64,000 bases of DNA from an uncultured Desulfuromonadales bacterium. Its GTDB lineage: Bacteria > Desulfobacterota > Desulfuromonadia > Geobacterales > Pseudopelobacteraceae. Position numbers and translations under genes: made by a program. Numbering within the stretch: position 1 is the first letter of the stretch; each line of letters begins with the position of its first letter. The notes under the pieces were generated by a model. It saw only the letters and a program-made list of their open reading frames with translations. It did not search any database and was not told where the DNA came from. Shown here piece by piece: positions 25,166-35,921 of the stretch. Location: contig CAIPTY010000096.1 of the NCBI GenBank assembly GCA_903868145.1, positions 1 through 64,000 on the forward strand, given 5' to 3'.

Positions 25166-26262
25166 CAAACCTGCCCCTTTAACACATAACGCGCCATCTG
25201 CTGGGCTGTCATACCGCCAAGCCCAAGACTTTCTGCAGTTCTGCCTATGGACCAGTAATCCTCGTTATTGGCCATGCAGGCAATATTGACAATGGCCTCG
25301 ATCCTGTCCACCGGCATACCGATCTGCCGGCCAATGGTTGCTACAGTCACCAGACCGTATGGCACATCTTCGGTCACATAGCGATGATTCAGGGAATCAG
25401 GCGCCATCTGCACGTTGTGGGCAGATATCTGATACATGGCGTCGTAGGCGGTTTCTCCCTTCACTTTGTACATTACTTCCATGTACTCCATGAATGAATA
25501 GGTTTCGCGACAAAGCTGACGCGCGACCTCCACCCGCTGAAAATCTACGGCCTCCATGATCCGACCGACCGACGGTGTGATATCATAGTGGGAGTTACGG
25601 TACGGGCCGATCTGCTCAATCCTGCTCATGTTCATTAGTGTAGAGATGGGATGGGCGATCATACCCGGGTCGTCAATGCTGGTCTGAAACACGCCCATGG
25701 CGGGTGAAAGCTGGGGATACAGATCTGTCAGCACCCATAGGGCCTCGGCGGTCCGTTCTGCAGGCAGCGAAGCATAAGGCAGTTCGCTCTTGATCGCCTT
25801 GATGTTTACATGTCCCATTCCCCTGGTTTTTGCTGCAAATAGAAAACAGGAGGTCTCACCGATTAAAAAGTCGTTCAGACGTCCGGCCTCACGCAGACGC
25901 TGCGCAAACACAAGACTGCCAAACTTGCCGGGATTAAAGACAACAATCTGCCCTTTTTCGCCATGTTCAATCAGGGCCTGCATGTACGGTTCCTGAGCAA
26001 AGGCCGGCACAATCACCATCACCACCTCTGCCCCCTTAAGGCCAGCTGCAACATCGGTGGTCATCATAGCCGGCTTGGCAAAGCCTGGCGGAGCACCGGT
26101 GGAAGTCACCCCTTCAACCACAATGCCCCCAAAGGCCTGGAGAAGCTGCAGGTTTGATGAATGTCCCTGCGTTGCCGCCAGCCGCACCTCATGACCTGCA
26201 AGGGTAAGATCTCCTGTCATGGCTATTCCGCCATGACCTGCACCAAGAATGGTAACTATCAT
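25165..26262 (-). CDS. Octopine/nopaline-dehydrogenase-family oxidoreductase
   Basis: 365 residues. N-terminal Rossmann motif ILGAGHGGIAMTGDLTLAGHEV and, in the C-terminal half, HPISTLMNMSRIEQIG with YDITPSVGRIMEAVDFQRVEVAR, the helical octopine_DH domain. This family reductively condenses an amino acid with a 2-oxoacid to an N-carboxyalkyl amino acid, or acts in reverse. The ATG at 26262 has AGGAG eight bases upstream; a TTG at 26268 is too close to it. First gene of a three-gene operon with an exporter and an amidohydrolase. No nicotianamine-synthase-like gene is nearby, so this is not a standard opine metallophore locus. Confidence 0.87.
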   Translation of the reverse strand: MIVTILGAGHGGIAMTGDLTLAGHEVRLAATQGHSSNLQLLQAFGGIVVEGVTSTGAPPGFAKPAMMTTDVAAGLKGAEVVMVIVPAFAQEPYMQALIEHGEKGQIVVFNPGKFGSLVFAQRLREAGRLNDFLIGETSCFLFAAKTRGMGHVNIKAIKSELPYASLPAERTAEALWVLTDLYPQLSPAMGVFQTSIDDPGMIAHPISTLMNMSRIEQIGPYRNSHYDITPSVGRIMEAVDFQRVEVARQLCRETYSFMEYMEVMYKVKGETAYDAMYQISAHNVQMAPDSLNHRYVTEDVPYGLVTVATIGRQIGMPVDRIEAIVNIACMANNEDYWSIGRTAESLGLGGMTAQQMARYVLKGQV

Positions 26263-27006
26263 AGTCAAGTCTCCTGAATAAAATTCAATGGTTTCAGACT
26301 GATCCGACCCAAATTAATGTACCCGTCACAGCATGGACTGGCCAAATTCACGAGCCCATCGGGGTCAACATTGTAAGCCCGCCTACACATTTATCGTAAA
26401 TTCAGCGAGCGAATAACTTTATTCGAAAGCCACTGATTCCTGAGAAAAAAGTTTGCTTGGGCACGAGAGTAACTGCTCAAGCTCACTGACCCGGTAAGGC
26501 TTTGCAATAGCACCAGAAAATCCGCAGGAACTGTAGTCTGATGGCTATCCCGATGAATCCGACCGATTGAACTGATGTGACGCCGACCGCCGTTCCGCCG
26601 ATGTCGACCGGTTTGTTGTGAGGTCGCAAGGTGTGTTTCGCTACTCTGTCACAGGTTCCGTTTTATGGTCAAGAAATGTTCTTTACCTTCTCATAGATTC
26701 AGCCTTCAGTTCCAGCTCGCTCTGGATCGTAAAATATGTAACACTTGGCGATGGCAAAGGATTATTCATAGCAGGCGGGACGAACGGTTTGATAATCACT
26801 TCACATGATACTATCACGTAGACCCGTCGGGAATCGGGTACTAAATCAGTCATACTGGGCTTAGGCGGGCATTCCGGACTGGCAGTAGGAAGTGGTACCG
26901 GAGGGCTCATCCATCCCAGGGGGAGTAAATCTCTTTTCTGTGCGGATTGATGGTCTGCCTGAGCCGAAGAGGGGCAAGGAACTACACCGTTTTTCAGCAG
27001 GTTAAG
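26263..27006. other. Gene-poor interval with decayed sequence
   Basis: No convincing intact gene in 744 bases. The part at 26419-26544 encodes a receiver-domain remnant (listed separately). At about 26548-26605 there is GC-rich sequence with repeated CCGACCG/GTCGACCGG words unlike its surroundings, possibly the edge of a vanished mobile element. Short open frames around 26618-26910 on both strands lack ribosome sites and known motifs. Confidence 0.5.
26419..26544 (-). pseudogene. Remnant of a hybrid histidine kinase receiver domain
   Basis: The minus strand carries 41 codons between two stops that end in GFSGAIAKPYRVSELEQLLS and a short tail, which is the alpha4-beta5-alpha5 end of a response-regulator receiver, with the conserved Lys-Pro. 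No start codon, phospho-acceptor region or kinase core precedes it, as a TAG lies just upstream. It is the stub left after deletion of a larger gene. Confidence 0.65.
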
Positions 27007-27387
27007 CTACTTTTCCAATCGGTACTTCACTACGCCACGGTATGGCTGATAGCTGCCAGTTGACTGATCATACCATTGAATTTTCTGGTTCAGCCGGTGA
27101 AGCCTGAATCGATCGACTATAGGGGTGGTGTCTGGATCGCCCGGACAGTTACCACCATGTTTTTCATGAATCGCAATATCGACATGGTTCTTTGTATTTT
27201 TTTCTGTGACAAACGAGAGGCAGGCCAAGCTGGTCCAGCTATCATAGAGCTTGTCCTTTTTTATTTGAACTATCAGAAGATCTAACGCCTGTTTTTCATC
27301 AAGTGGATTCTTGGCGCTGGCAGGGGTTTCAGTTAAGAAAGCTACAAGCAGAAAGAGGTATACGGGTTTGAGCCAGCCTGTTTTCAT
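27007..27387 (-). CDS. Secreted hypothetical protein
   Basis: 126 residues with a signal peptide (KPVYLFLLVAFLTETPASA, cleavage probably after ASA). The mature part is small and polar with two Cys and a C-terminal YQPYRGVVKYRLEK. No family recognised. It lies just left of the integrated element, so before insertion it was directly downstream of hpnH. Probably periplasmic. Confidence 0.6.
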   Translation of the reverse strand: MKTGWLKPVYLFLLVAFLTETPASAKNPLDEKQALDLLIVQIKKDKLYDSWTSLACLSFVTEKNTKNHVDIAIHEKHGGNCPGDPDTTPIVDRFRLHRLNQKIQWYDQSTGSYQPYRGVVKYRLEK

Positions 27388-27455
27388 AAAGTGACTTCCT
27401 GTAAAAGTTATTCGTTGTAGAGTTGAAAATAGATAAAATCCCGCAGCGTACCTTA

Positions 27456-27490
27456 CTCAAAATCATCACGTAAGGTTCCAGATAAACATT
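27456..27490. repeat. attL-like direct repeat
   Basis: 35 bases identical to 33009-33043, beginning CTCAAAATCATCACG and ending CCAGATAAACATT. On the minus strand it encodes a copy of the HpnH C-terminus (MFIWNLT-stop) detached from the rest of that gene. Flanking bases differ from those of the right copy, which fixes the limits. Confidence 0.9.
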
Positions 27491-27544
27491 CCATAGCTCA
27501 ATAAAAATTATACATTTCAGTTATTTATGATGTAGCTGTTTTAA

Positions 27545-27565
27545 AAAGGGACGGTATAGGTACGG
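27545..27565. repeat. Element end repeat, left copy
   Basis: 21 bases (AAAGGGACGGTATAGG and then TACGG) repeated exactly at 32868-32888 inside the right end. Placed 54 bases inside the left attachment repeat. Likely arm-type binding site for the recombinase or excisionase. Confidence 0.6.
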
Positions 27566-27791
27566 TCAGGAAAATATTACCTCGTTTCCGAAACTCCGTT
27601 TATACCATCGAATCACATCACCGGCAACCGCATTTCCAGAATACCTATTTATATAATCGGTTCAGCGGTTCTAAATCAGTCGGGCTGAATAAATAATCAG
27701 AGTAAAATCAATAACTTATATATTGACAACGTGTTTTTAATTCTGTTACCCTTCCTGTCAGATTCAAACAATCAACCAGGAGGGAACGGAC

Positions 27792-27971
27792 ATGAAAGCA
27801 AGCGAATTAATTGCAAGGATTCAGGAATTGATTGCAGGGCAGGGCGATGTAAACGTGTACCAGGGTGATATGCAGAAACTCACGAAGGGCGATCTTCTTC
27901 TTGTGGACACCGTACCCGAACCCGGCTCTGAGAAGTACGGCCAGAAGTATCTTCATATCGGAGCCTATTGA
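27792..27971 (+). CDS. Small element protein of unknown function
   Basis: 59 residues, MKASELIARIQELIAGQGD at the start and EKYGQKYLHIGAY at the end. An ideal AGGAGG lies nine bases before the ATG and a hairpin follows the stop, so the gene is very probably real. The N-terminal helix (SELIARIQELIAGQGDVNVY) resembles short proteins found in phages and mobile elements; no function is assigned. First gene from the left end. Confidence 0.7.
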   Translation: MKASELIARIQELIAGQGDVNVYQGDMQKLTKGDLLLVDTVPEPGSEKYGQKYLHIGAY

Positions 27972-27995
27972 CACACTACCAGGATCATAACGATT

Positions 27996-28025
27996 GAAGG
28001 CCGGTGGCGCAATGTCCCGGCCTTC
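27996..28025 (+). terminator. Hairpin terminator
   Basis: Perfect arms GAAGGCCGG and CCGGCCTTC around a 12-base loop, 24 bases after the small gene, followed by TTTGCG. The T-run is short, so termination may be partial. Confidence 0.6.
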
Positions 28026-28444
28026 TTTGCGTTCGCCGTATTACATCATACAGCCGCCGCCAATATTCGAGGCATAGCGTATGGCGATAAGACACGCATC
28101 ACAGGTTGACTCTCCCGATCCCCCAGGCACAGCAGGGATACACTACACTGTTGCTGTTCTCTGCCCTGTTCTGTCTGGCTGCTGCCGGAACCTTGCCCTG
28201 GACAAGTCCTCCACCTATGCCGGAGCAGACCCCCTCCCGTGATACCCCCCCCACCCCCGCCCCCGTCCAAGCCATAGGAGTCCCCCACCCTTGAAAGTTC
28301 CCTGTCGCGGACACAAGAACGATCTCTTCGGCGAAAAAATTTCCCAAAAAATTCCTACTATTTTTTCCACGCCATCGGTTTATGATATAATCATCGTATA
28401 AGATGATCTCAGAAATCGGATGAAGAGGCAGAAAGGAATTGATT
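28026..28444. other. Interval with C-rich tract and promoter-like sequence
   Basis: A run of almost only C (about 28246-28268) gives long Gly or Pro frames that are compositional. A plus-strand frame at 28106-28294 would encode a hydrophobic segment followed by a Pro-rich tail but has only a TTG start and no ribosome site. A TATAAT at 28386-28391 lies about 55 bases before the next gene and is a good -10 candidate. Confidence 0.4.
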
Positions 28445-28612
28445 ATGTCGGACGCAGCCAGAATGAAGAGACTGGGAATAGATCATCTTACGTTTCAGGA
28501 ACAGAAGGATTACCTGGACAGGGAATGCGCGGAGATACGCCGCAAGGAAGAGGAAGCGAGAGCAGCCAAGAACCGGCAACTCTCAGAGAACTTAGGAGGG
28601 GACAATACATGA
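28445..28612 (+). CDS. Small charged element protein
   Basis: 55 residues, MSDAARMKRLGIDHLTFQ followed by a highly charged helical region (YLDRECAEIRRKEEEARAAK) and a short tail, ending GGDNT. AAAGGAA lies before the ATG. The TGA overlaps the ATG of the next gene, with that gene's AGGAGG inside this one. A longer frame from 28420 in another phase covers the same bases but looks unprotein-like here; this frame is preferred. Likely coiled coil; function unknown. Confidence 0.65.
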   Translation: MSDAARMKRLGIDHLTFQEQKDYLDRECAEIRRKEEEARAAKNRQLSENLGGDNT

Positions 28613-28953
28613 AGTCAAAACTTACGACAACACAGATGCGCTCCTTGTCTCTTTCTGGTTTGAAATCAATAAGTCATTCTCAGAAAACGGCTATCCGCGA
28701 AGCCTTGGAGAATCCGAACAACGCCCATCTAGTGAGTCAACTCCCACAGGAGAAACTAGCTCTGTATCGTCAACAGGCCGGGATGAATCAACCGGAAGCC
28801 CCTACAATGAAATTCAGGCCATCATCGCTGAAAGCAATGCTCTTGAGGAATCCGCAAGCCTTGGACAACGCCCGGCAGCGTCCTGATCTGGTGGCGAAAA
28901 TGTCACCGGCAGTACAGGAAGTAATGAAGGAAGCCCTGCAAGAAACAGCGTAA
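28609..28953 (+). CDS. Element protein of unknown function
   Basis: 114 residues, beginning MKSKLTTTQMRSLSLSGLKS, helical and basic. There are two related-looking helical segments, REALENPNNAHLVSQLPQE and LLRNPQALDNARQRPDLVAK, each followed by a polar linker, suggesting an internal duplication. Perfect AGGAGG ten bases upstream and coupling to the preceding gene. No family recognised. Confidence 0.7.
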   Translation: MKSKLTTTQMRSLSLSGLKSISHSQKTAIREALENPNNAHLVSQLPQEKLALYRQQAGMNQPEAPTMKFRPSSLKAMLLRNPQALDNARQRPDLVAKMSPAVQEVMKEALQETA

Positions 28954-29334
28954 CCCCTCCCGCAGAACACAGTATGAGCCGTTATCCTGTCGAGTGAATA
29001 CCATGGGCAGGGTCACAATAGAATAACCTCTTAAACGGCCTCAAAAGCCTATTGAAGTACGGAAATAAGCACTAGAAAAGGATGCTTGTTCACCCCATTC
29101 AGGGTACATCAAAGGATACATGCAGATCGTCATATATTTGACGGTTTGTATATTGCAAAAGCTGAATATGTGCGGGATTGCAGGGAATGGATAAATGATA
29201 ATTCAACCAGGAAAAGCATGGTGGAAGGAATTTAGAAACGGGGAAAAAGGGGATTCAATCGACCGTTCTGGCTTCAGGTGATGCGCGTAAAAGAAAGGGG
29301 AGCCATTACAGCCCCCCGATTTTGTTCAACGCTA
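28954..29334. other. Interval between convergent element genes
   Basis: 381 bases without a gene I can support. Its right end has the terminator of the minus-strand gene group. The rest shows no strong repeat or ribosome site. Confidence 0.5.
29290..29318 (-). terminator. Terminator of the minus-strand small genes
   Basis: On the minus strand the hairpin GGGG-x-GC / GC-x-CCCC with a seven-base loop is followed by TTTCTTTT. It lies just downstream of the 29335 stop. Confidence 0.55.
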
Positions 29335-29610
29335 CTATGTCTTTGCCGGTTTCATTTTTGGCTTCCTCATCGGTGTCCTACTCGGCGGATTCGCCTTGAC
29401 GGGCATTGGTAATTCAATATTCTTCGCAGCCTGGAACATGGATATAAAATCATCTGCCATATCAAGAGGAATTGCAAAGCCCCTGCCGGTCTGCGAATAC
29501 TCTTGCAGCACAATCATGTCAAGGCCGGAGAGCTGCTTTCTGGATACTCTGACGGTTTCAACCACACTCTTTTCGAGATAGCCGGTAATGATTCCATTTT
29601 CAGGATTCAT
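29335..29610 (-). CDS. Small element protein of unknown function
   Basis: 91 residues from the ATG at 29610, whose A and TG overlap the previous stop (ATGA), with AAGGGGGTG upstream; a start at 29640 is less likely. The middle (LDMIVLQEYSQTGRGFAIPL then DMADDFISMF) looks folded, and the C-terminal 25 residues are Pro/Lys-rich. No family recognised. Last of the minus-strand small-gene series. Confidence 0.65.
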   Translation of the reverse strand: MNPENGIITGYLEKSVVETVRVSRKQLSGLDMIVLQEYSQTGRGFAIPLDMADDFISMFQAAKNIELPMPVKANPPSRTPMRKPKMKPAKT

Positions 29611-29903
29611 TTCTTCACCCCCTTGATTTCCGTACTCCATGCCGCCATGATTTCAGCCCTTGCCGCTTCAAGATCACAAGCAAGCTGTTTAAGGTCGCTG
29701 GCATCGGAAGAACGTACTTTCATGTCAACGATCCGATTCAATGCTTGCGGTAGTGATGCGAAGTATTTGAATGGTTCCCAGGACTCGACAATTACGCCGC
29801 TGTCTTTGTCCTTTTCTCTACGAATCTTGCACAACTCATAACTCATTGAATCCGATCTCAAAAGAATCTGCTCATTATTTTTCAGCGTGAAGATGATATT
29901 CAT
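29607..29903 (-). CDS. Small element protein of unknown function
   Basis: 98 residues from ATG 29903 with a perfect AAGGAG. MNIIFTLKNNEQILLRSD, a beta-rich part with WEPFKYFASLPQALNRIV, and a C-terminal helix (LKQLACDLEAARAEIMAAW). The pattern of a short beta domain followed by ALNRxxxxKVRSSDASDLKQL is one I associate with small proteins of phages and integrative elements, without known function. The frame is open further upstream but that part belongs to other genes in other frames. Confidence 0.7.
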   Translation of the reverse strand: MNIIFTLKNNEQILLRSDSMSYELCKIRREKDKDSGVIVESWEPFKYFASLPQALNRIVDMKVRSSDASDLKQLACDLEAARAEIMAAWSTEIKGVKK

Positions 29904-29917
29904 GGTGTAGCTCCTTG

Positions 29918-30091
29918 TCATGGTATGGGGTAAATGGTTAAAGTGTCTCTGCCAGGCTCTACCGAACTGACAGCCGGTTTTCTTGTTGCCTTCTCTCTGA
30001 TCTCCTTCAAGCCGGAAAGCAGGTTCAGCATTCCTGACTGTTCGGCAAGTGACAGAGGCCGGGATTTCTTTTTGATCTGGTATGCTCTCAT
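29918..30091 (-). CDS. Very small element protein
   Basis: 57 residues, MRAYQIKKKSRPLSLAEQSG at the start and DTLTIYPIP at the end. GGGGAGGAA lies before the ATG and the gene is embedded in another open frame. Basic N-terminus, one amphipathic helix (SGMLNLLSGLKEIREKATRK). Its start overlaps the stop of the upstream frame and its stop is just ahead of the next ribosome site, so it fits a tightly packed operon. Function unknown. Confidence 0.65.
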   Translation of the reverse strand: MRAYQIKKKSRPLSLAEQSGMLNLLSGLKEIREKATRKPAVSSVEPGRDTLTIYPIP

Positions 30092-30266
30092 ATCGGTAAT
30101 TCCTCCCCGTCAAAATCGAATGACGGCAAATCACAAGCAACTTGATAAAACTGTGCAGGTGTATCCGGTTGCGCTTGCAGGGTGGTTGTGGTAGGTTGAG
30201 GATACGTTCAGCCGTACCTCCAAGCCCTTCCGGTTTCCCCCCGGTGGGGCTTACTTCGTTTCTCAT
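30088..30266 (-). pseudogene. Small ORF with an apparent frameshift
   Basis: Starts at ATG 30266 overlapping the AlpA-like stop (ATGA) and reads MRNEVSPTGGKPEGLGGTAE..., then loses protein character. In the -1-type frame the second half reads TTLQAQPDTPAQFYQVACDL and ends FDGEELPI with a TGA that overlaps the next start (ATGA). Joining both halves near the CCACAACCACC stretch gives one coherent protein of about 60 residues with coupling at both ends. Either an inactivating indel or a programmed frameshift; the sequence alone cannot decide. Confidence 0.5.
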
Positions 30267-30493
30267 GCCGCCCTCCGCACCGATGCTTCGGAAGTGCTCT
30301 TCACGATCCGGCTGTCAAAAAACGCATCCAACTCGGTTCTCGGATAAAGAACCATACCGGCCAACTTGATAAATTTCGGCCCACCACCATAAGTCCTTGC
30401 TCTGCGATACCAGTGAACGGAACCGCCATACTCCGCTGATGCTTCTTTTTCGTTGAGATTCTTTTTGACGATCTCCTGAATTGTGTTTCCCAT
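30263..30493 (-). CDS. AlpA/excisionase-like DNA-binding protein
   Basis: 76 residues. The core, ASAEYGGSVHWYRRARTYGG then GPKFIKLAGMVLYPRTELDAFFDSR, matches the AlpA/MerR-like winged helix-turn-helix pattern (helix-turn-helix, then Gly-Pro, wing with V.YPR.ELD.F) used by excisionases and regulators of integrase genes in mobile elements. AAAGGAA precedes the ATG. Probably controls excision or transcription of the element. Confidence 0.75.
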   Translation of the reverse strand: MGNTIQEIVKKNLNEKEASAEYGGSVHWYRRARTYGGGPKFIKLAGMVLYPRTELDAFFDSRIVKSTSEASVRRAA

Positions 30494-30605
30494 TTTCGAT
30501 TTCCTTTCATAACGAGATTAACGGTCGCGACTCGTTGACAAGGATTAAGACACAAACGCAATGCAAAATAAATATATTTCGTATAAATATCAGTAAGTTA
30601 TACTC

Positions 30606-30742
30606 AAAATCAGTGATAAAATCAGTGATTTTTGAAAGGCTCACGGAAAAAAAACAAAAAACCCCGTAAAGCACCATATTTACAGGGTTTGAAGAGTGTT
30701 TATTATGTTAAAAATCAGTAGTGAAAATCAGTGATTTTTGAA
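30606..30742. repeat. Iteron-like AAAATCAGTGAT repeats
   Basis: Copies at 30606, 30618, 30724 and a variant (AAAATCAGTAGTG) at 30711. Two copies extend identically to AAAATCAGTGATTTTTGAA (30618-30636, 30724-30742), each containing the inverted arms AAAATC and GATTTT. They surround a terminator and lie upstream of the AlpA-like gene; likely protein-binding sites. Confidence 0.65.
30648..30690 (-). terminator. Rho-independent terminator
   Basis: Minus-strand hairpin with 11-base arms AACCCTGTAAA and TTTACGGGGTT (one G-T pair), 8-base loop, then TTTTTTGTTTTTTTT. It ends transcription from the 30751-31416 gene and integrase. Confidence 0.85.
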
Positions 30743-30750
30743 TGCTGCAT

Positions 30751-31416
30751 TTATGCTTGAGTGTATGGGTTCTTTATTTTTCGCTCGTTCCACAGTTTTT
30801 CTAAATCACCCATACGGATTTCTTTCTGTTTGCGCTTGATTTTGAGCGTTACCTTGTCTCTATCGACCGCTAAAACCTCATACCCATACTTACAGCCTAC
30901 TGATTTCATGCCTTTCACGACAAAGGTCAGCAACAAATTAAAATCGTCGGATTCCTTTTTGTACTTTGCGCGGTAATCCTCTAAAAGATGATCCATGAAC
31001 CGGCCTTGCGGAGTGTACGATTTTCCCTTTTTTATCGCCCCGCCTGTTGTCAGTGGTGCTGATACAGGTTTTGCAGTTTCAGTGTCGGAGGTAACACAAC
31101 CGAAATAGTTTTCCTTAAATCGTTCAGCTTCATCACGCATGATCCTGATCTCAAGTTCCCCGTTACCGATGAAGTCAGACACGGTACACTCGCCACGGTT
31201 AAAATCCGGATACGGGTCAAATCTTTCTGGCATCATTCCGGGCTTTACGACATGCCAGTTTGACCAACCGTTTTCGAGAAGTTTCCTGCCATGTATTTCA
31301 AGCTTGTCCGTCAAGGCGCAACCCCATACAAATTGTGCAGAATCATTTTCAAGTCCAAGGAATTCCAGAAAATCATAAAAATCACAATGCTCCCAAGGTA
31401 ACTGAAATTTTGTCAT
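30751..31416 (-). CDS. Hypothetical element protein
   Basis: 221 residues. N-terminal region with WEHCDFYDFLEFLGLEND and NGWSNWHVVKPGMMPERF, a low-complexity linker with KPVSAPLTTGGAIKKGKS, and a C-terminal basic part (KVTLKIKRKQKEIRMGDLEK). No motif recognised. Single gene between the integrase and a strong terminator, so it is cargo or an element maintenance gene. GGTGC..-type weak ribosome site (GGAGCACC) before the ATG. Confidence 0.65.
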   Translation of the reverse strand: MTKFQLPWEHCDFYDFLEFLGLENDSAQFVWGCALTDKLEIHGRKLLENGWSNWHVVKPGMMPERFDPYPDFNRGECTVSDFIGNGELEIRIMRDEAERFKENYFGCVTSDTETAKPVSAPLTTGGAIKKGKSYTPQGRFMDHLLEDYRAKYKKESDDFNLLLTFVVKGMKSVGCKYGYEVLAVDRDKVTLKIKRKQKEIRMGDLEKLWNERKIKNPYTQA

Positions 31417-31448
31417 TGTCGGTGCTCCTTACGATCTCCAGGGAGTAA

Positions 31449-31543
31449 CCGGGAAAATTGGTGGAGCTACCAACTTGTCGCGCCGTCGCGCTATTCCCGG
31501 AAAGTGTACCGCCCAAATATGCCGTGTACGGCGTTCAAGCGGT
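31449..31543 (-). ncRNA. Compact cloverleaf-like inverted-repeat structure, possible ncRNA or DNA cruciform
   Basis: In the 152-base gap between the integrase and the next gene. An outer 7-base stem CCGGGAA/TTCCCGG (31449-31455, 31494-31500) encloses two perfect hairpins, TTGGT/ACCAA (31458-31473) and GCGC/GCGC (31480-31491). Next to it ACCGC/GCGGT (31508-31512, 31539-31543) encloses GCCG/CGGC (31521-31532). All arms pair exactly. Strand and function are inferred. Confidence 0.5.
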
Positions 31544-31568
31544 GCTGTTAATAGCCTGATACCTTTAA

Positions 31569-32804
31569 TTATGCCGCCTGACGGTTAATCGGTATCACCT
31601 TTGCGCCGGAGCCGACTACCATCAGTCTTTCAATCTCGTTGCATATTGCCTGTAGAGGTGCCCGTAAATCTTCAACACCTATCCGGCTGTAATGCTTCCC
31701 GGTAACAGTCTGGTCAATGTGGTTCGTCAACAGGTTTACATCTTCACGCCGGAGCCGCAACCGTTCGCCTATGGTGGTAAAGGTACGTCTCAGGGAATGA
31801 GGTGTTACTTCGAGCCCGGTCTTTGGGCGCAACTTATCGGCGCGCAGTATGATATGTCCGTTTTTGCTTTTCTTGACGATAGAGGGGAAAACGTATTTGT
31901 CGCCCTCCTGCATGGCCGCTTTCCGTTTGTTCAGTATTTCCATCGACTGACGGGATAGCGGCAAAATCCCCCGATGCTTGGTTTCAGAGTCCATCCATGT
32001 CAGGTCAAACAACTTCTTTTCAAGGTTCACGTCCGCCCATTGCAGGCTGTGTGCTTCGTCAGGGCGCAGGCCTTGATACAGGGTAAAGAGATAACAATCC
32101 CGGTGTATGGCAGGGAACGTCAGCAGGGCATCATGGAATTGTTTTAGCTGGTCGGGTTCGATGCAGGTAGTGCGCGCCTTGATCTCCGGCCATAATTCGG
32201 CATCGGTGATGACCTTGACGGGATTCCGGCTGATATGCTGCGGGTACAGGATCATTGCGTAACCCATAATTGCCTGTAGCATCTTGAACGAATTGGATGC
32301 AGCCCCTTTGCCGGACATGGACAATACTTCCTGATAACGCCTGATAACGATCTCAGGGGTCAACAGTCGCGCCAGTTCATTCAGCGGTAAGTCCATCCAT
32401 GTAGGGAACTTGATACCGTTCTCATTCTCAAAGTACACCTTGTATGCCTGTGCGGTTGTGTGCTTCAACTTCTTGTCATTGACATACTGGTTATACATCT
32501 GGCGTAAGGTAGGGGGTAAAACCTCGTCAGCAGGTTTGTTGTCTCTGAGCCGTTGCATTACGTCAGGTGCTTGCTGCCGCGCCTGTTCAGCGGTGATTTC
32601 GCCATATCGTTGCAACTTTGCTTTTACGGTTTTTGGCCGACCTGTCACGGGATCACGCACCTCGGTTTTCACGTAGAAGGTCTTGGAGGTTTGGCCTACA
32701 CGCAGAAACAGCCCCTTCAACTCTGTGTCAAAATAATCAACCTGTCCACTGTCAGTCAAACCCAGCTTGTCGATATTCCGTTTTGTCAATTGCATAACCG
32801 GCAT
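31569..32804 (-). CDS. int: Tyrosine recombinase (integrase)
   Basis: 411 residues. N-terminal arm-binding domain of the P4-integrase type (LTKRNIDKLGLTDSG...GLFLRVG, residues about 1-90), SAM-like core-binding domain, and the C-terminal catalytic domain with the conserved Arg (LYQGLRPDEAHSLQW), His-x-x-Arg (HSLRRTF), NHIDQTVTG and the nucleophile Tyr in GKHYSR. ATG with AGGAGGGG. It lies about 200 bases from the right attachment repeat and transcribes into the element. It should catalyse integration at, and excision from, the hpnH 3' end. Confidence 0.95.
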   Translation of the reverse strand: MPVMQLTKRNIDKLGLTDSGQVDYFDTELKGLFLRVGQTSKTFYVKTEVRDPVTGRPKTVKAKLQRYGEITAEQARQQAPDVMQRLRDNKPADEVLPPTLRQMYNQYVNDKKLKHTTAQAYKVYFENENGIKFPTWMDLPLNELARLLTPEIVIRRYQEVLSMSGKGAASNSFKMLQAIMGYAMILYPQHISRNPVKVITDAELWPEIKARTTCIEPDQLKQFHDALLTFPAIHRDCYLFTLYQGLRPDEAHSLQWADVNLEKKLFDLTWMDSETKHRGILPLSRQSMEILNKRKAAMQEGDKYVFPSIVKKSKNGHIILRADKLRPKTGLEVTPHSLRRTFTTIGERLRLRREDVNLLTNHIDQTVTGKHYSRIGVEDLRAPLQAICNEIERLMVVGSGAKVIPINRQAA

Positions 32805-32840
32805 CGTGGCACCCCTCCTTCTGTCTGGCGTACCTTTTCA

Positions 32841-32944
32841 CCGTACCTTTTTATTCTGTAGGTACGGAAAGGGACGGTATAGGTACGGGTAGAATTAAAA
32901 AACCCGCTAAATCTGTCTTAAAGATTAGCGGGTAAAAGGTACGG
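32841..32944. repeat. GGTACGG repeat cluster at the right end
   Basis: CCGTACC at 32841-32847 faces GGTACGG at 32861-32867, with more copies at 32882-32888 and 32938-32944. The 21-base repeat shared with the left end is 32868-32888. They lie just upstream of the integrase start, so they may be arm-type recombinase sites and also an operator for int. Confidence 0.6.
32895..32933 (-). terminator. Terminator insulating the element from hpnH
   Basis: On the minus strand the arms ACCCGCTAATCT and AGATTTAGCGGGT (one bulge) are followed by TTTTTTAATT. It would stop hopanoid-operon transcripts from running into the integrase. Confidence 0.75.
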
Positions 32945-33008
32945 TGTCAAGCTCTATTTTACTGTTTTATATCATTATTTCTTATGTTCTCAAAAGCCTT
33001 CAAAACCC

Positions 33009-33043
33009 CTCAAAATCATCACGTAAGGTTCCAGATAAACATT
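33009..33043. repeat. attR-like direct repeat within hpnH
   Basis: Exact copy of 27456-27490. Bases 33019-33043 are the last codons and stop of hpnH, so the target site lies in a protein gene, not in a tRNA. Confidence 0.9.
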
Positions 33044-34017
33044 TCCCAGACATCTTTCCAGTTTTTCCCTATCTCCCTGACCACTGTCGGTTCAAAACCG
33101 CAGTGCATCATGCACTGGGCACAGCGCGAGTCCCTCCCCACACCGTATTTGTCCCACTCGGTATTCTCCATCATCTCTTTGAAAGACGGATAGTGAGCAT
33201 CCGTAATCAGATAGCAGGGGGCCTTCCATCCCTGCGGGTTGCGGGTCGGGTTGCCCCAGGGGGTGCACTCCAGCTTTTTTTCACCCTTCAAAAAACGCAG
33301 GTACATGGGCGTTGAGAAGAAGTGGTGCTTCTTGCTCATCTCATATACATCGGCAAACTTCCTCTCAATATCACGCCGCTCCAGGAAGAGTTTTTCTCCG
33401 ACCGCCTCGTAGCCGAAACCGGGAGCGACCAGCAATCCATCCACTCCGATTTCCTCCAGATGAGTGAAGAGCATCTCGATCTCCACCAGGTCGGTCTCCT
33501 TGAAGATGGTCGTATTGGTGCAGACCCGGAAGCCAAGCTGCTTGGCCTTTTTGATCCCCTCCATTGCGATCCTGAAAGCGCCCTTGCGTTCAAGAATCCT
33601 GTCGTGCGTCTCCTCTAGGCCATCCATGTGGACATTGAGCATGAAATTGGGATGGGGCTTCATGCTGTCCAACGCTTTTTCCAGCAGGATGCCGTTCGTG
33701 CAAAGAATGATGTGCTTGCCCCGGTCAAGGACTGCGCTGATCAGTTCATAAATGTGCGGATACAGAAACGGTTCACCACCGGTAATCGTCACCACCGGCG
33801 CCGGGCATTCATCCACCGACTTCAGGCATTCCTCAAGAGTCATCATTTCCTGAATGGTGTCGGCATACTCGCGGATGCGACCACACCCGGAACAGGCCAG
33901 ATTGCAGAGATGGGTGGGTTCCAGCATCAGCACCAGCGGAAATTTTTCAATCTTGTCAAGCTTGTTGCTGATGATATACCTTGTCAGATCATAGTTGAGA
34001 CGAAACGGGAAACGCAT
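33019..34017 (-). CDS. hpnH: Hopanoid biosynthesis radical SAM protein HpnH
   Basis: 332 residues. Radical SAM cluster motif CNLACSGC (C-x3-C-x2-C) near residue 37, GGEPFLYPHIYELI and a C-terminal Cys-rich region with CAQCMMHCGFEPT. This family attaches adenosine to diploptene to give adenosylhopane, the precursor of extended hopanoids. AAAGGA before the ATG. It lies 32 bases downstream of dxs in the shc-hpnA-dxs-hpnH run. Its last codons form the integration site of the element; the encoded end (EMFIWNLT) is intact. Confidence 0.95.
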   Translation of the reverse strand: MRFPFRLNYDLTRYIISNKLDKIEKFPLVLMLEPTHLCNLACSGCGRIREYADTIQEMMTLEECLKSVDECPAPVVTITGGEPFLYPHIYELISAVLDRGKHIILCTNGILLEKALDSMKPHPNFMLNVHMDGLEETHDRILERKGAFRIAMEGIKKAKQLGFRVCTNTTIFKETDLVEIEMLFTHLEEIGVDGLLVAPGFGYEAVGEKLFLERRDIERKFADVYEMSKKHHFFSTPMYLRFLKGEKKLECTPWGNPTRNPQGWKAPCYLITDAHYPSFKEMMENTEWDKYGVGRDSRCAQCMMHCGFEPTVVREIGKNWKDVWEMFIWNLT

Positions 34018-34049
34018 TCAATACATCCTTTCAATACGGTGCAGAAACA

Positions 34050-35921
34050 TTATTTGTCACGCAAAAACAGTTCTGCCGCGGCAGCTATTCCTTCGGCATC
34101 TATCCCCAGGGCTTTTCTGAGTTGCGCCTGACTGCCATGTTCGATATATCTGTCCGGGATCCCTAGCCGCCTTACCCTTATGTCCTGTAACCCACTATCG
34201 TAGAGCATCTCCAGGACGGCGCTACCAAATCCACCCTGCAGGGCATTCTCTTCAACCGTGATGATCCGACCTGTGTTTCGGGCCGCATCCCCGATCAGCG
34301 CTGCGTCAAGCGGCTTCACAAAACGGGCGTTGATAACACCCGCACTGATCCCCTTCTGCTTGAGCACTTCGGCGGCCTCAAGAGCCGGATACACCGTAGA
34401 ACCAATGGCGATAATGCACAGGTCACTGCCTTCCAGCAGCACTTCCCCCTGCCCAGTTTCCAGAGTTTTCAGCTCCGAATCGAGGTCAATGCCGTACCCT
34501 GAACCGCGCGGATAGCGAAGAGCCATGGGAACGTCTGAATAGATAGCCGTCTTGAGCATGTGGCGCAGTTCATTCTCATCCTTGGGAGCCATCAACGTAA
34601 TGCCCGGCAGATGGCGCAGATATGAGAGATCGAACACGCCGTGGTGCGTCGGGCCGTCATCGCCCACCAGTCCAGCCCTATCCATGACGATCGTTACCGG
34701 CAGCTTCTGGAGACAGATGTCGTGAAACACCTGATCGTAGGCTCGCTGGACAAATGATGAATAGATGGCCGTCACCGGGCGAAAACCATCGGAGGCAAGT
34801 CCGGCGGCAAAGGTCATGGCATGCTGCTCGGCAATCCCCACATCAAAAAACCGTTCCGGAAAGCGTTCGGCAAACAGGTTAAGACCGGTTCCATCAGGCA
34901 TGGCGGCCGTAATGCCGACAATCTTGGGATCCTGTTCAGCCAGCTGGACAACGGTTTCGGCGAAAACCTCGGTAAACGAGCGAACTACAGGCTTTGCAGG
35001 ACCTTTGCCGGTAGCAATGTCAAAGGTGCCGACCCCGTGATATTTGTGCGGGGTATCTTCGGCGGGTTTGTAACCCTTACCCTTGGTCGTCATCACATGA
35101 ACCAACATCGGGCCATCCAGTTGATTGATATTATTGAAGACCTCAATCAACTCCGTCAGATTGTGCCCGTCAAGCGGCCCCAGGTAATCGAACCCTAATG
35201 CTTCAAACAGTGAGCCGGGGGTCAGAAAACCCTTCAAGGAGTTTTCAGCCCGCCGGGCAAATTGCAGGATATCGCTGCCGATTGCCGGAATATGACTGAG
35301 AAGCCCCTGCATCTCCTTTTTCAGATCACGGAAATAGCGTCCCGTCATCTTGCGTGAAATGAAGGCCGAAAAGGCTCCCACATTTTTTGAGATGGACATC
35401 TCGTTATCATTGAGAATGACAATCAGATTTTTTTTGAGATGGCCGGCCTGATTGAGGGCTTCAAAGGCCATACCGCCGGTCAGGGAACCATCGCCGATAA
35501 CAGCAATTGCATGGCTTTTGGAGCCGGCCAGATCGGCGGCGGCGGCCATGCCAAGTCCGGCCGAGATGGAGGTAGAGGCATGACCGACACCAAAAGCGTC
35601 GTGCTCAGATTCGGAGCGTTTGGGAAACCCGGAGAGCCCCTTATACTGACGCTGGGTGTGGAATCGATCACGGCGACCGGTCAGGATCTTGTGGGTGTAG
35701 GCCTGATGCCCCACATCCCAGACAATTTTATCCGTGGGCGAGTCAAAACAGTAGTGCAGCGCGATCGTCAACTCGACCGTACCCAGGTTCGAACCAAGGT
35801 GCCCTCCGGTATTTGAGACCGTCTCCAGCAGGAAACGACGAACCTCTTCAGCAAGTTCCGGCAGCTGTTCCGGTGCCAGTTTTTTCAGGTCCGCAGGACT
35901 ATTGATCTTTTCAAGTAACAT
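34050..35921 (-). CDS. dxs: 1-deoxy-D-xylulose-5-phosphate synthase
   Basis: 623 residues, the normal DXS length. Seen: [19 protein letters not shown], the TPP motif [15 protein letters not shown]...[26 protein letters not shown] and the transketolase segment [15 protein letters not shown]. It makes DXP from pyruvate and glyceraldehyde-3-phosphate, the first step of the MEP isoprenoid pathway, supplying squalene for hopanoids. GAGG before the ATG. It is 12 bases after hpnA, so isoprenoid supply and hopanoid tailoring are coupled. Confidence 0.97.

Follow-up and report, generated by a model that had tools for sequence, protein, structure and literature searches.

How can a mobile element settle immediately behind an active protein gene without harming that gene and without being flooded by its transcription? 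The question is raised by a 5.55-kb segment of contig CAIPTY010000096.1, from the assembly GCA_903868145.1 of an uncultured Desulfuromonadales bacterium, of which a stretch of 64,000 nucleotides (nt), here called the window, was analysed. The segment lies against the 3' end of hpnH, and the sequence evidence supports its interpretation as a site-specific integrative element that uses this gene end as its bacterial attachment site (attB) and regenerates the gene. We consider it probable that the element also carries a transcription terminator in which the promoter of its own integrase is nested, and that this device, together with the mode of integration, explains the locus as a whole.

A preliminary description of the window had reported perfect 35-base direct repeats around a 5.6-kb segment with an integrase, and this proved correct: both copies agree at 35 of 35 positions, are spaced by 5553 nt (coordinates in Table 1) and enclose the gene of a tyrosine integrase of 411 amino acids (aa). 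The repeat is made up of one base of the preceding codon, seven whole codons (ATG TTT ATC TGG AAC CTT ACG), the TGA stop codon and 10 nt, and not of the eight codons and stop that had been read originally. It is found exactly twice in its own 3.80-Mb assembly with up to three mismatches allowed (the reversed pattern, used as a control, is never found), so it is not a dispersed genome sequence, the alternative that the same description had raised. The hpnH open reading frame (ORF) crosses the repeat unbroken and is complete after integration, in agreement with the regeneration that had been proposed. The entire segment is single-copy in its genome, where its sole other match (39 nt, E = 8e-4) is a terminator module at glnA. 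With up to three mismatches allowed, the window contains exactly two copies of an 18-nt doubled arm motif, CCGTACCTATACCGTCCC (0.02 expected); they are identical, co-oriented and located inside the repeats, one near each element end. Such paired arm sites just within both ends support the boundaries of the element. The integrase ORF is open and full length, and R247, K276, H336, R339, H362 and Y372, which we take to be the catalytic-type residues, are invariant in five aligned integrases (that of the window and four relatives). The segment has two traits that characterize a tyrosine-integrase genomic island, a recombinase with its catalytic domain and attachment (att) repeats at both ends with the target restored. 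No tRNA gene is present in the 64-kb window.

The region between the stop codon of the target gene and the integrase has a constant order in this element and its relatives: a T-rich stretch, TTGAC, 17-18 nt, TANNNT, a hairpin followed by a T tract, and the paired arm sites. TANNNT sits within the 5' arm of the hairpin, which is predicted to be an intrinsic terminator, and TTGAC and TANNNT would be the -35 and -10 elements of the integrase promoter. Their spacing is 17 or 18 in the modules with an integrase while the sequence of the spacer varies. The hairpin of the window has a minimum free energy of -14.8 kcal/mol (z = -3.4). Promoter geometry is established knowledge, and by this geometry the integrase transcript would start at about positions 32914-32916, in the loop; an RNA beginning in the loop cannot form the hairpin and is left with a different, weaker pairing (-7.8 kcal/mol). 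In a structure alignment of 24 rows, which were hand-picked and leave out locus L060, whose -35 is poor, 95.1% of the stem cells are paired, 4 of the 12 pairs show changes on both sides, and the covariation score is reached in none of 500 shuffles. The window module scores 83.3 bits with the corresponding covariance model, of which it is itself part. Matches to the module were found in 54 of 141 genomes of the order Geobacterales, at about 11 unrelated genes, and none was found outside the order: among 395 genomes sampled from the phylum, the two with a match (1e-5) both belong to it. No Rfam family matches positions 26000-35000 at the gathering threshold.

The comparison of modules with and without an integrase indicates that promoter and terminator have had different fates. 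After merging of identical copies and of those shorter than 55 nt, 71 distinct module sequences remain: 31 with an integrase, 29 without, 9 fragments and 2 cut by contig ends. An integrase was counted when its alignment covered at least 330 columns, and two of those counted, L054 (= L024) and L043, carry one internal stop codon. The integrase loci L027 (at a contig edge), L041 and L045 gave no module match and stand outside the 31, although L041 has TTGACA before a hairpin. TTGAC is present in 29 of the 31 modules with an integrase versus 2 of the 29 without (p = 3e-12), in 3 of the 9 fragments and in neither contig-cut copy. The arm pair follows a similar pattern (30/31, 5/29, 6/9 and 1/2, respectively), and TANNNT is found in 27 of 29 modules with an integrase versus 16 of 29 without (p = 0.002), L022 and L034, both without TANNNT, being left out. 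The outer stem, on the other hand, is nearly complete in every group (mean 8.7-9.0 of 9 pairs, with G-U pairs allowed and the best register taken), and the hairpins are more stable without an integrase than with one (median -21.1 versus -16.6 kcal/mol, p = 0.0014, rows uncollapsed). Since the integrase-less copies are not independent (seven of them are amt in one genus), the test was also made on groups collapsed by target gene and genus, assigned by hand. TTGAC is then present in 16 of 18 groups with an integrase versus 2 of 18 without (p = 5e-6), in 16 of 16 when L022 and L034 are removed (p = 7e-8) and in 16 of 19 when L060 is counted too (p = 1e-5). The loss of TTGAC is not circular, because the box also counts towards the detection of a module.

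The exceptions fall on both sides. L022 and L034 have long integrases and an extra segment between module and integrase gene, and they have lost TTGAC and kept the arms. This segment of about 300 nt is rich in direct and inverted GGTGTTCCGG-type repeats and is perhaps a different regulatory switch; the two loci belong to different integrase clades in one genus. Conversely, L299 keeps TTGAC without an integrase. An integrase-like start (MPK...) opens there an ORF for a PAS/sigma-54 activator (L299:2774-4600), which seems to have taken over the promoter and the start-codon region that once belonged to an integrase now lost. L288 also keeps TTGAC without an integrase, for no obvious reason.

The att repeats, the arms, the conserved module, the choice of targets and the differing fates of promoter and terminator are read in the sequences themselves, and from them we infer termination, promoter activity, the start site, autorepression and excision. 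Integration would swap the last hpnH codons and the stop for an identical copy, leaving the gene whole, and would part hpnH from its former downstream DNA, which in relatives often holds a native terminator. The element would supply a substitute terminator about 85 nt past the hpnH stop, with the integrase promoter nested in it such that the -35 precedes the hairpin and the -10 forms part of its 5' arm. Read-through RNA from hpnH would then carry the complete hairpin and stop, and the integrase transcript, starting in the loop without the 5' arm, would read on into the integrase gene. The integrase arm sites adjoin the promoter and may allow self-repression; since the evidence for an arm site in the promoter spacer is weak, autorepression is proposed mainly by analogy. 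In a decaying element the promoter would be lost, and the terminator would stay with the host gene. Such a course of events suggests an answer to the question asked at the outset.

The integrase of the window is one of a family. A related integrase was found in 36 (E 1e-60) and hpnH in 122 (E 1e-120) of the 141 Geobacterales genomes. The gene before the integrase was looked for at 31 related loci besides the window: 28 integrases are co-directional after the 3' end of a protein gene, one is convergent at hpnH and two are undeterminable. Excluding the window, the targets are a GPMC sigma-54 regulator (NF038230; 11 loci), hpnH (5), a DUF1847 gene (4), a cytidylate kinase-BON gene (3), amt (2), dnaJ (2) and a glycosyltransferase (1). 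In Geobacter sp. AOG1 a related element of 10 kb lies at the GPMC-regulator gene. Target names were tested for nine representatives besides hpnH and extended to the others by shared C-terminal sequence, the glycosyltransferase being named by eye; the GPMC-regulator matches score under the NF038230 cut-off, in ORFs that run to the edge of the fetched stretch. Of the remaining 4 of the 36 integrase genomes, G122 and G071 have hpnH and G099 has an rlmL-like gene as target, and G008 was left out. The covariance-model search added integrase loci at hisG (two, one tested), an rlmL-like methyltransferase (match under the model cut-off) and glnA (integrase near a contig end). Integrase-less copies of the module lie at hpnH, amt, hisG, glnA, the kinase-BON gene, the rlmL-like gene and the citramalate synthase gene cimA; two of them are in the window's own genome, after glnA (C29:8630-8693) and cimA (C68:28870-28932), and correspond to L298 and L304.

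Of 17 elements searched for a second copy of the end of their target gene, 13 have one, 5.6-38 kb away, a decayed one has a partial copy, and in three none was found (G122, as well as G003 and G114 near contig starts). In 12 of these 13 elements a co-oriented doubled arm motif accompanies the distal copy, 47-76 nt within it, a count that has no shuffled control; the motif is weak in G040. No tRNA stands at an attachment site: the single tRNA that ARAGORN found in 40 partly overlapping related loci is 2.2 kb away from an integrase, which has a different gene as its target. On the integrase tree the target largely follows the clade, with 10 label changes against a minimum of 9 and a shuffled mean of 22.4; the labels predate the assignment of targets to L022 and L034, which are labelled 'none'. 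In a scan of genome contigs with the hpnH-clade alignment, matches of at least 40% over most of the integrase occur only in records of Geobacter, Geomonas, Trichlorobacter, Geobacteraceae, Desulfuromonadaceae or 'Deltaproteobacteria', and matches elsewhere are of 25-28%. A close phage relative of the integrase was discarded as well: 20 phage records match with a best identity of about 28%, and viral contigs reach only 23-26%. All this describes what is, judged by sequence, a tyrosine-integrase family specialised on the 3' ends of conserved protein genes and seen only in Geobacterales, whose members in Geobacter, Geomonas and related bacteria use some ten different protein genes as landing sites. 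The preliminary description had considered a protein gene, and hpnH in particular, an unusual choice for such integrases. Neither opinion is supported, given the ends of about ten protein genes occupied by related integrases, the lack of any tRNA site in the scan of the 40 loci, and a TIGER/Islander survey in which 43.4% of islands lie in coding sequences versus 33.8% in tRNA/tmRNA genes (PMC12424338).

The hpnH gene itself is targeted recurrently. Its survey covered 121 loci from 120 genomes, up to about 15 kb downstream (less than 2 kb in 18 loci and less than 0.5 kb in 7); G130 and G005 were left out for a truncated hpnH, and locus L145 ends before the stop codon. In 7 of the 121 loci (the window included; one is cut by a contig end) a same-clade integrase begins some 200 nt beyond the hpnH stop, integrase fragments follow hpnH in 4 further loci, and the characteristic 200-nt arm of the element is present without an integrase at 10 further ones (E < 1e-7), where the weakest matches are due chiefly to the terminator. 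In most of the 121 loci no element is seen beside hpnH, to be read with the 18 that have less than 2 kb downstream. The recurrence in relatives rules out hpnH as a one-off target. The same 3' end has also received a different, convergent integrase (about 38% identical) in L058 (G079), and L146 (G091) keeps a 28-aa remnant of the convergent integrase. In G059, a 23-bp copy of the hpnH end with one mismatch lies 38.0 kb away. The decayed element of G041 has its second, partial copy 10.1 kb away, followed by a terminator like that of relatives, and the 2.8 kb beyond the partial copy are 89% identical to the DNA after hpnH in an element-free relative. G041 is, at the level of sequence, an empty-site comparison for a relative of the window element, its native terminator displaced by 10 kb. 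In another genome (G037, locus L151) 199 nt just after hpnH, with a terminator-like hairpin among them, are perfectly duplicated in direct orientation.

An effect of the element on downstream hopanoid gene expression, which had been suggested for the window, finds no support in these comparisons. Of 95 unoccupied hpnH loci, 47 have a terminator-like hairpin that begins 14-93 nt beyond the stop codon, a number that falls to 1 after one mononucleotide shuffle of each, and hpnH visibly appears to end its transcription unit in about half of these loci. The element would replace termination after hpnH instead of removing it.

Several other scenarios may explain these observations. The terminators without an integrase could be the genes' own, captured from the hosts by the elements and not donated by them. 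Unoccupied hpnH genes do have terminators at a similar distance in the 47 loci just mentioned, and 8 of the 29 integrase-less copies score below 30 bits, with L118 and L189 at E > 1e-3 and L118 also counted among the 95 unoccupied loci. Yet the same module recurs at about 11 unrelated genes in the order and in none of the sampled genomes outside it, the terminators of unoccupied hpnH genes mostly differ, by eye, from the module and from one another, and some integrase-less copies retain remnants of the arms (5 of 29 keep the pair), which makes this scenario very improbable. A second possibility is an ordinary gene-end element with an incidental terminator, in which host transcription would drive the integrase gene of the integrated element, as proposed for ICEKp1, the hairpin would only attenuate it, and TTGAC would belong to a protein-binding site for recombination. 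The geometry is indeed that of ICEKp1: there the integrase gene follows its target at a distance of 161 bp, integration displaces the host terminator, and stem-loops in the 5' untranslated region attenuate read-through (PMC13023037). Moreover, TTGAC vanishes along with the arm sites once the integrase is gone, as any att component would, and L060 has an integrase and no TTGAC. Against a mere binding site speak the TTGAC-TANNNT distance of 17 or 18, kept across a variable spacer in modules with an integrase; L022 and L034, which keep the arm pair (7 of 7) and lose both TTGAC and TANNNT where another segment precedes the integrase gene; and L299, which keeps the box without integrase or arm pair, another gene following. 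This second scenario is improbable. Somewhat less so, but still unlikely, is that the window holds a dead genomic island, a fixed remnant with an inactive integrase: its cargo is orphan or unknown, no packaging or transfer gene was recognised in the searched ORFs, and it measures only 5.55 kb. Against this, the integrase is full length with its predicted catalytic-type residues invariant in the five sequences, the repeats match at 35/35, and the arms are identical.

An integrative element with a promoter nested in its terminator remains the preferred explanation, and the following points weigh against it. The window -10, TAATCT, fits the consensus only at TA...T, and the hexamer is also constrained by the stem; a consensus scan lists neither the promoter nor the terminator of the window, and its 11 promoters, compared with 8.4 in shuffles, are no clear excess. 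Only 10 of 29 modules have a promoter-spacer arm site that scores 7 of 7, and the match of spacer sites to the arms of their own module is weakly special (67 of 5000 swaps are as good). For the window itself, the search for a syntenic empty site of the distal flank found no close relative and one weak tblastx match only, and no native terminator is visible past the distal repeat. The hpnH rows of the integrase tree do not form one clade (three changes), being interrupted by L022 and by the convergent integrase, which has a long branch. The sequences are related, so that p-values are optimistic even when collapsed by hand, and the retention of the hairpin in integrase-less copies is partly circular, as the search model includes the hairpin. 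Finally, L060, an integrase at hpnH cut by a contig end, has TTGCAT in place of TTGAC, and together with the collapsed 16 of 18 it weakens the promoter evidence a little.

A broader evolutionary scenario can be proposed more tentatively, its chances being close to even. The element lineage may have evolved a compact promoter-inside-terminator insulator in its own attachment site (attP), which would shield the integrase from host transcription and give core genes replacement terminators; these would have been repeatedly kept and stabilised by hosts after element loss, seeding standard terminators at core-gene ends across a bacterial order. This would suggest an origin for some host terminators and provide a portable insulator of natural origin, in which a promoter works regardless of the terminator around it.

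Table 1. Coordinates of the element, its target and its predicted regulatory sites and ORFs in the window.
Feature	Position	Strand	Evidence or remark
-35 hexamer TTGACA, predicted integrase promoter	32945..32950	-	TTGAC in 29/31 modules with integrase, 2/29 without
-10 hexamer TAATCT, predicted	32922..32927	-	17 nt from -35; in 5' arm of hairpin
Predicted intrinsic terminator (hairpin 32933-32902 and T tract)	32896..32933	-	about 85 nt after hpnH stop
Predicted integrase arm-type sites, hpnH side (CCGTACCTATACCGTCCC)	32871..32888	-	equivalent pairs in 30/31 modules with integrase
Predicted integrase arm-type sites, distal side (CCGTACCTATACCGTCCC)	27548..27565	-	co-oriented with hpnH-side pair
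hpnH-proximal att copy (last 7 codons and stop of hpnH, 10 nt)	33009..33043	-	35/35 identity, 2 genome copies
Distal att copy, displaced end of original hpnH	27456..27490	-	35/35 identity, 2 genome copies
hpnH (adenosyl-hopene transferase), target	33019..34017	-	332 aa; TIGR03470 HpnH 474 bits, cut-off 225
Tyrosine integrase, 411 aa	31569..32804	-	Phage_integrase PF00589 4.6e-12; Arm-DNA-bind_3 PF13356 9.7e-8; phrog_1 integrase 7.3e-31
221-aa orphan ORF	30751..31416	-	own match only
76-aa helix-turn-helix (HTH) protein, possible AlpA-type excisionase/regulator	30263..30493	-	weak: phrog_66 0.0018; HTH_17 0.034, under cut-off
99-aa protein, phage replication-initiation-like	29607..29906	-	phrog_154 E 9.7e-9
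101-aa ORF	29335..29640	-	no family match
177-aa ORF	28420..28953	+	no family match
59-aa ORF	27792..27971	+	weak: phrog_10692 0.0072

The 221-aa ORF has no relatives in the 141 genomes of the order (E 1e-8) or in plasmid records (1e-3), and no close ones in viral contigs. No replication primase (pri) was found among the window ORFs searched, so the element is not classed as a phage-inducible chromosomal island (PICI); of the int and alpA genes that mark Gram-negative PICI/P4-like elements, int is clear and the only AlpA-like match is the weak one to phrog_66. No packaging or transfer gene was recognised in the same ORFs. Known defence cargo was discarded, with no PADLOC match for six window ORFs and one ORF of a relative. 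Among ten selected proteins from relatives, a DnaB-like helicase and a small terminase belong to the element of G029, a primase/helicase and a lytic tail-like protein to that of G001, and a large terminase to that of G059. The cargo of L222 (Geomonas anaerohicana, G032), at the GPMC-regulator gene, is unlike this phage-like cargo, its three selected proteins having a TrwC relaxase domain, Fic and NB-ARC/TPR. The integrase module thus seems, from these matches, to serve both satellite-like and mobilisable-looking elements. Two further stretches of the window may be mentioned. The intergenic positions 30598-30742, upstream of the HTH gene, contain repeated AAAATCAGTGAT(TTTTGAA) boxes, possibly operator or origin repeats. 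Near the distal att copy, about 740 nt (26269-27006) have only small ORFs and are possibly decayed DNA; on one side is an ORF of 367 aa, identified by eye as dehydrogenase-like, and on the other one of 126 aa whose beginning resembles a signal peptide.

The individual traits of this system have precedents. In Escherichia coli the frd terminator overlaps the ampC promoter, an overlap of terminator and promoter like the one proposed here, but chromosomal, not mobile and not repeated at many genes. In KplE1 intS and other pairs of a tRNA gene and an integrase gene in the same orientation, the integrase promoter overlaps the att region and the integrase sites, and negative autoregulation has been shown (PMC2951348). 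The predicted integrase promoter of the window family is likewise close to the att region and to predicted integrase sites; the targets of the KplE1 type differ in being tRNA genes, and the available part of that report describes no terminator-promoter overlap. ICEKp1 resembles the window family in its co-directional integrase gene about 160-200 nt after the target, its displaced native terminator and the stem-loops before the integrase gene. However, its target is a tRNA-Asn gene and its integrase gene is reported to be expressed from the host promoter when integrated and from a separate promoter at the 3' end when excised (PMC13023037), whereas the window family has protein-gene targets and a single promoter predicted inside the terminator. 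The HE-PICIs have an integrase clade with repeated tropism for protein genes, one target per subclade, and their attP is flanked on either side by doubled arm motifs that are paired and co-oriented; the fis PICIs integrate at the fis terminus, typically followed by a terminator (PMC10111431). The window family shares with them the protein-gene tropism, in large part the target per subclade, and the paired doubled arms. The doubled TGTATTGC arm motif of the HE-PICIs has no match in the window with up to three mismatches. Unlike the HE-PICIs (PMC10111431), the window family has unrelated host genes as targets and not prophage late genes, and it brings a conserved terminator of its own, in which a promoter is predicted to be nested. 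A literature search in titles and the beginnings of abstracts returned nothing on hpnH as an integration site or on a terminator-nested promoter before an integrase gene. Nor did these searches show the combination of a single family confined, as far as seen, to one order, targets at the ends of some ten unrelated genes, and an attP whose integrase promoter is nested in a terminator that the host genes keep. Integration at gene ends is already known, and the present integrase family, with a promoter predicted inside its terminator, seems to be a new form of it.

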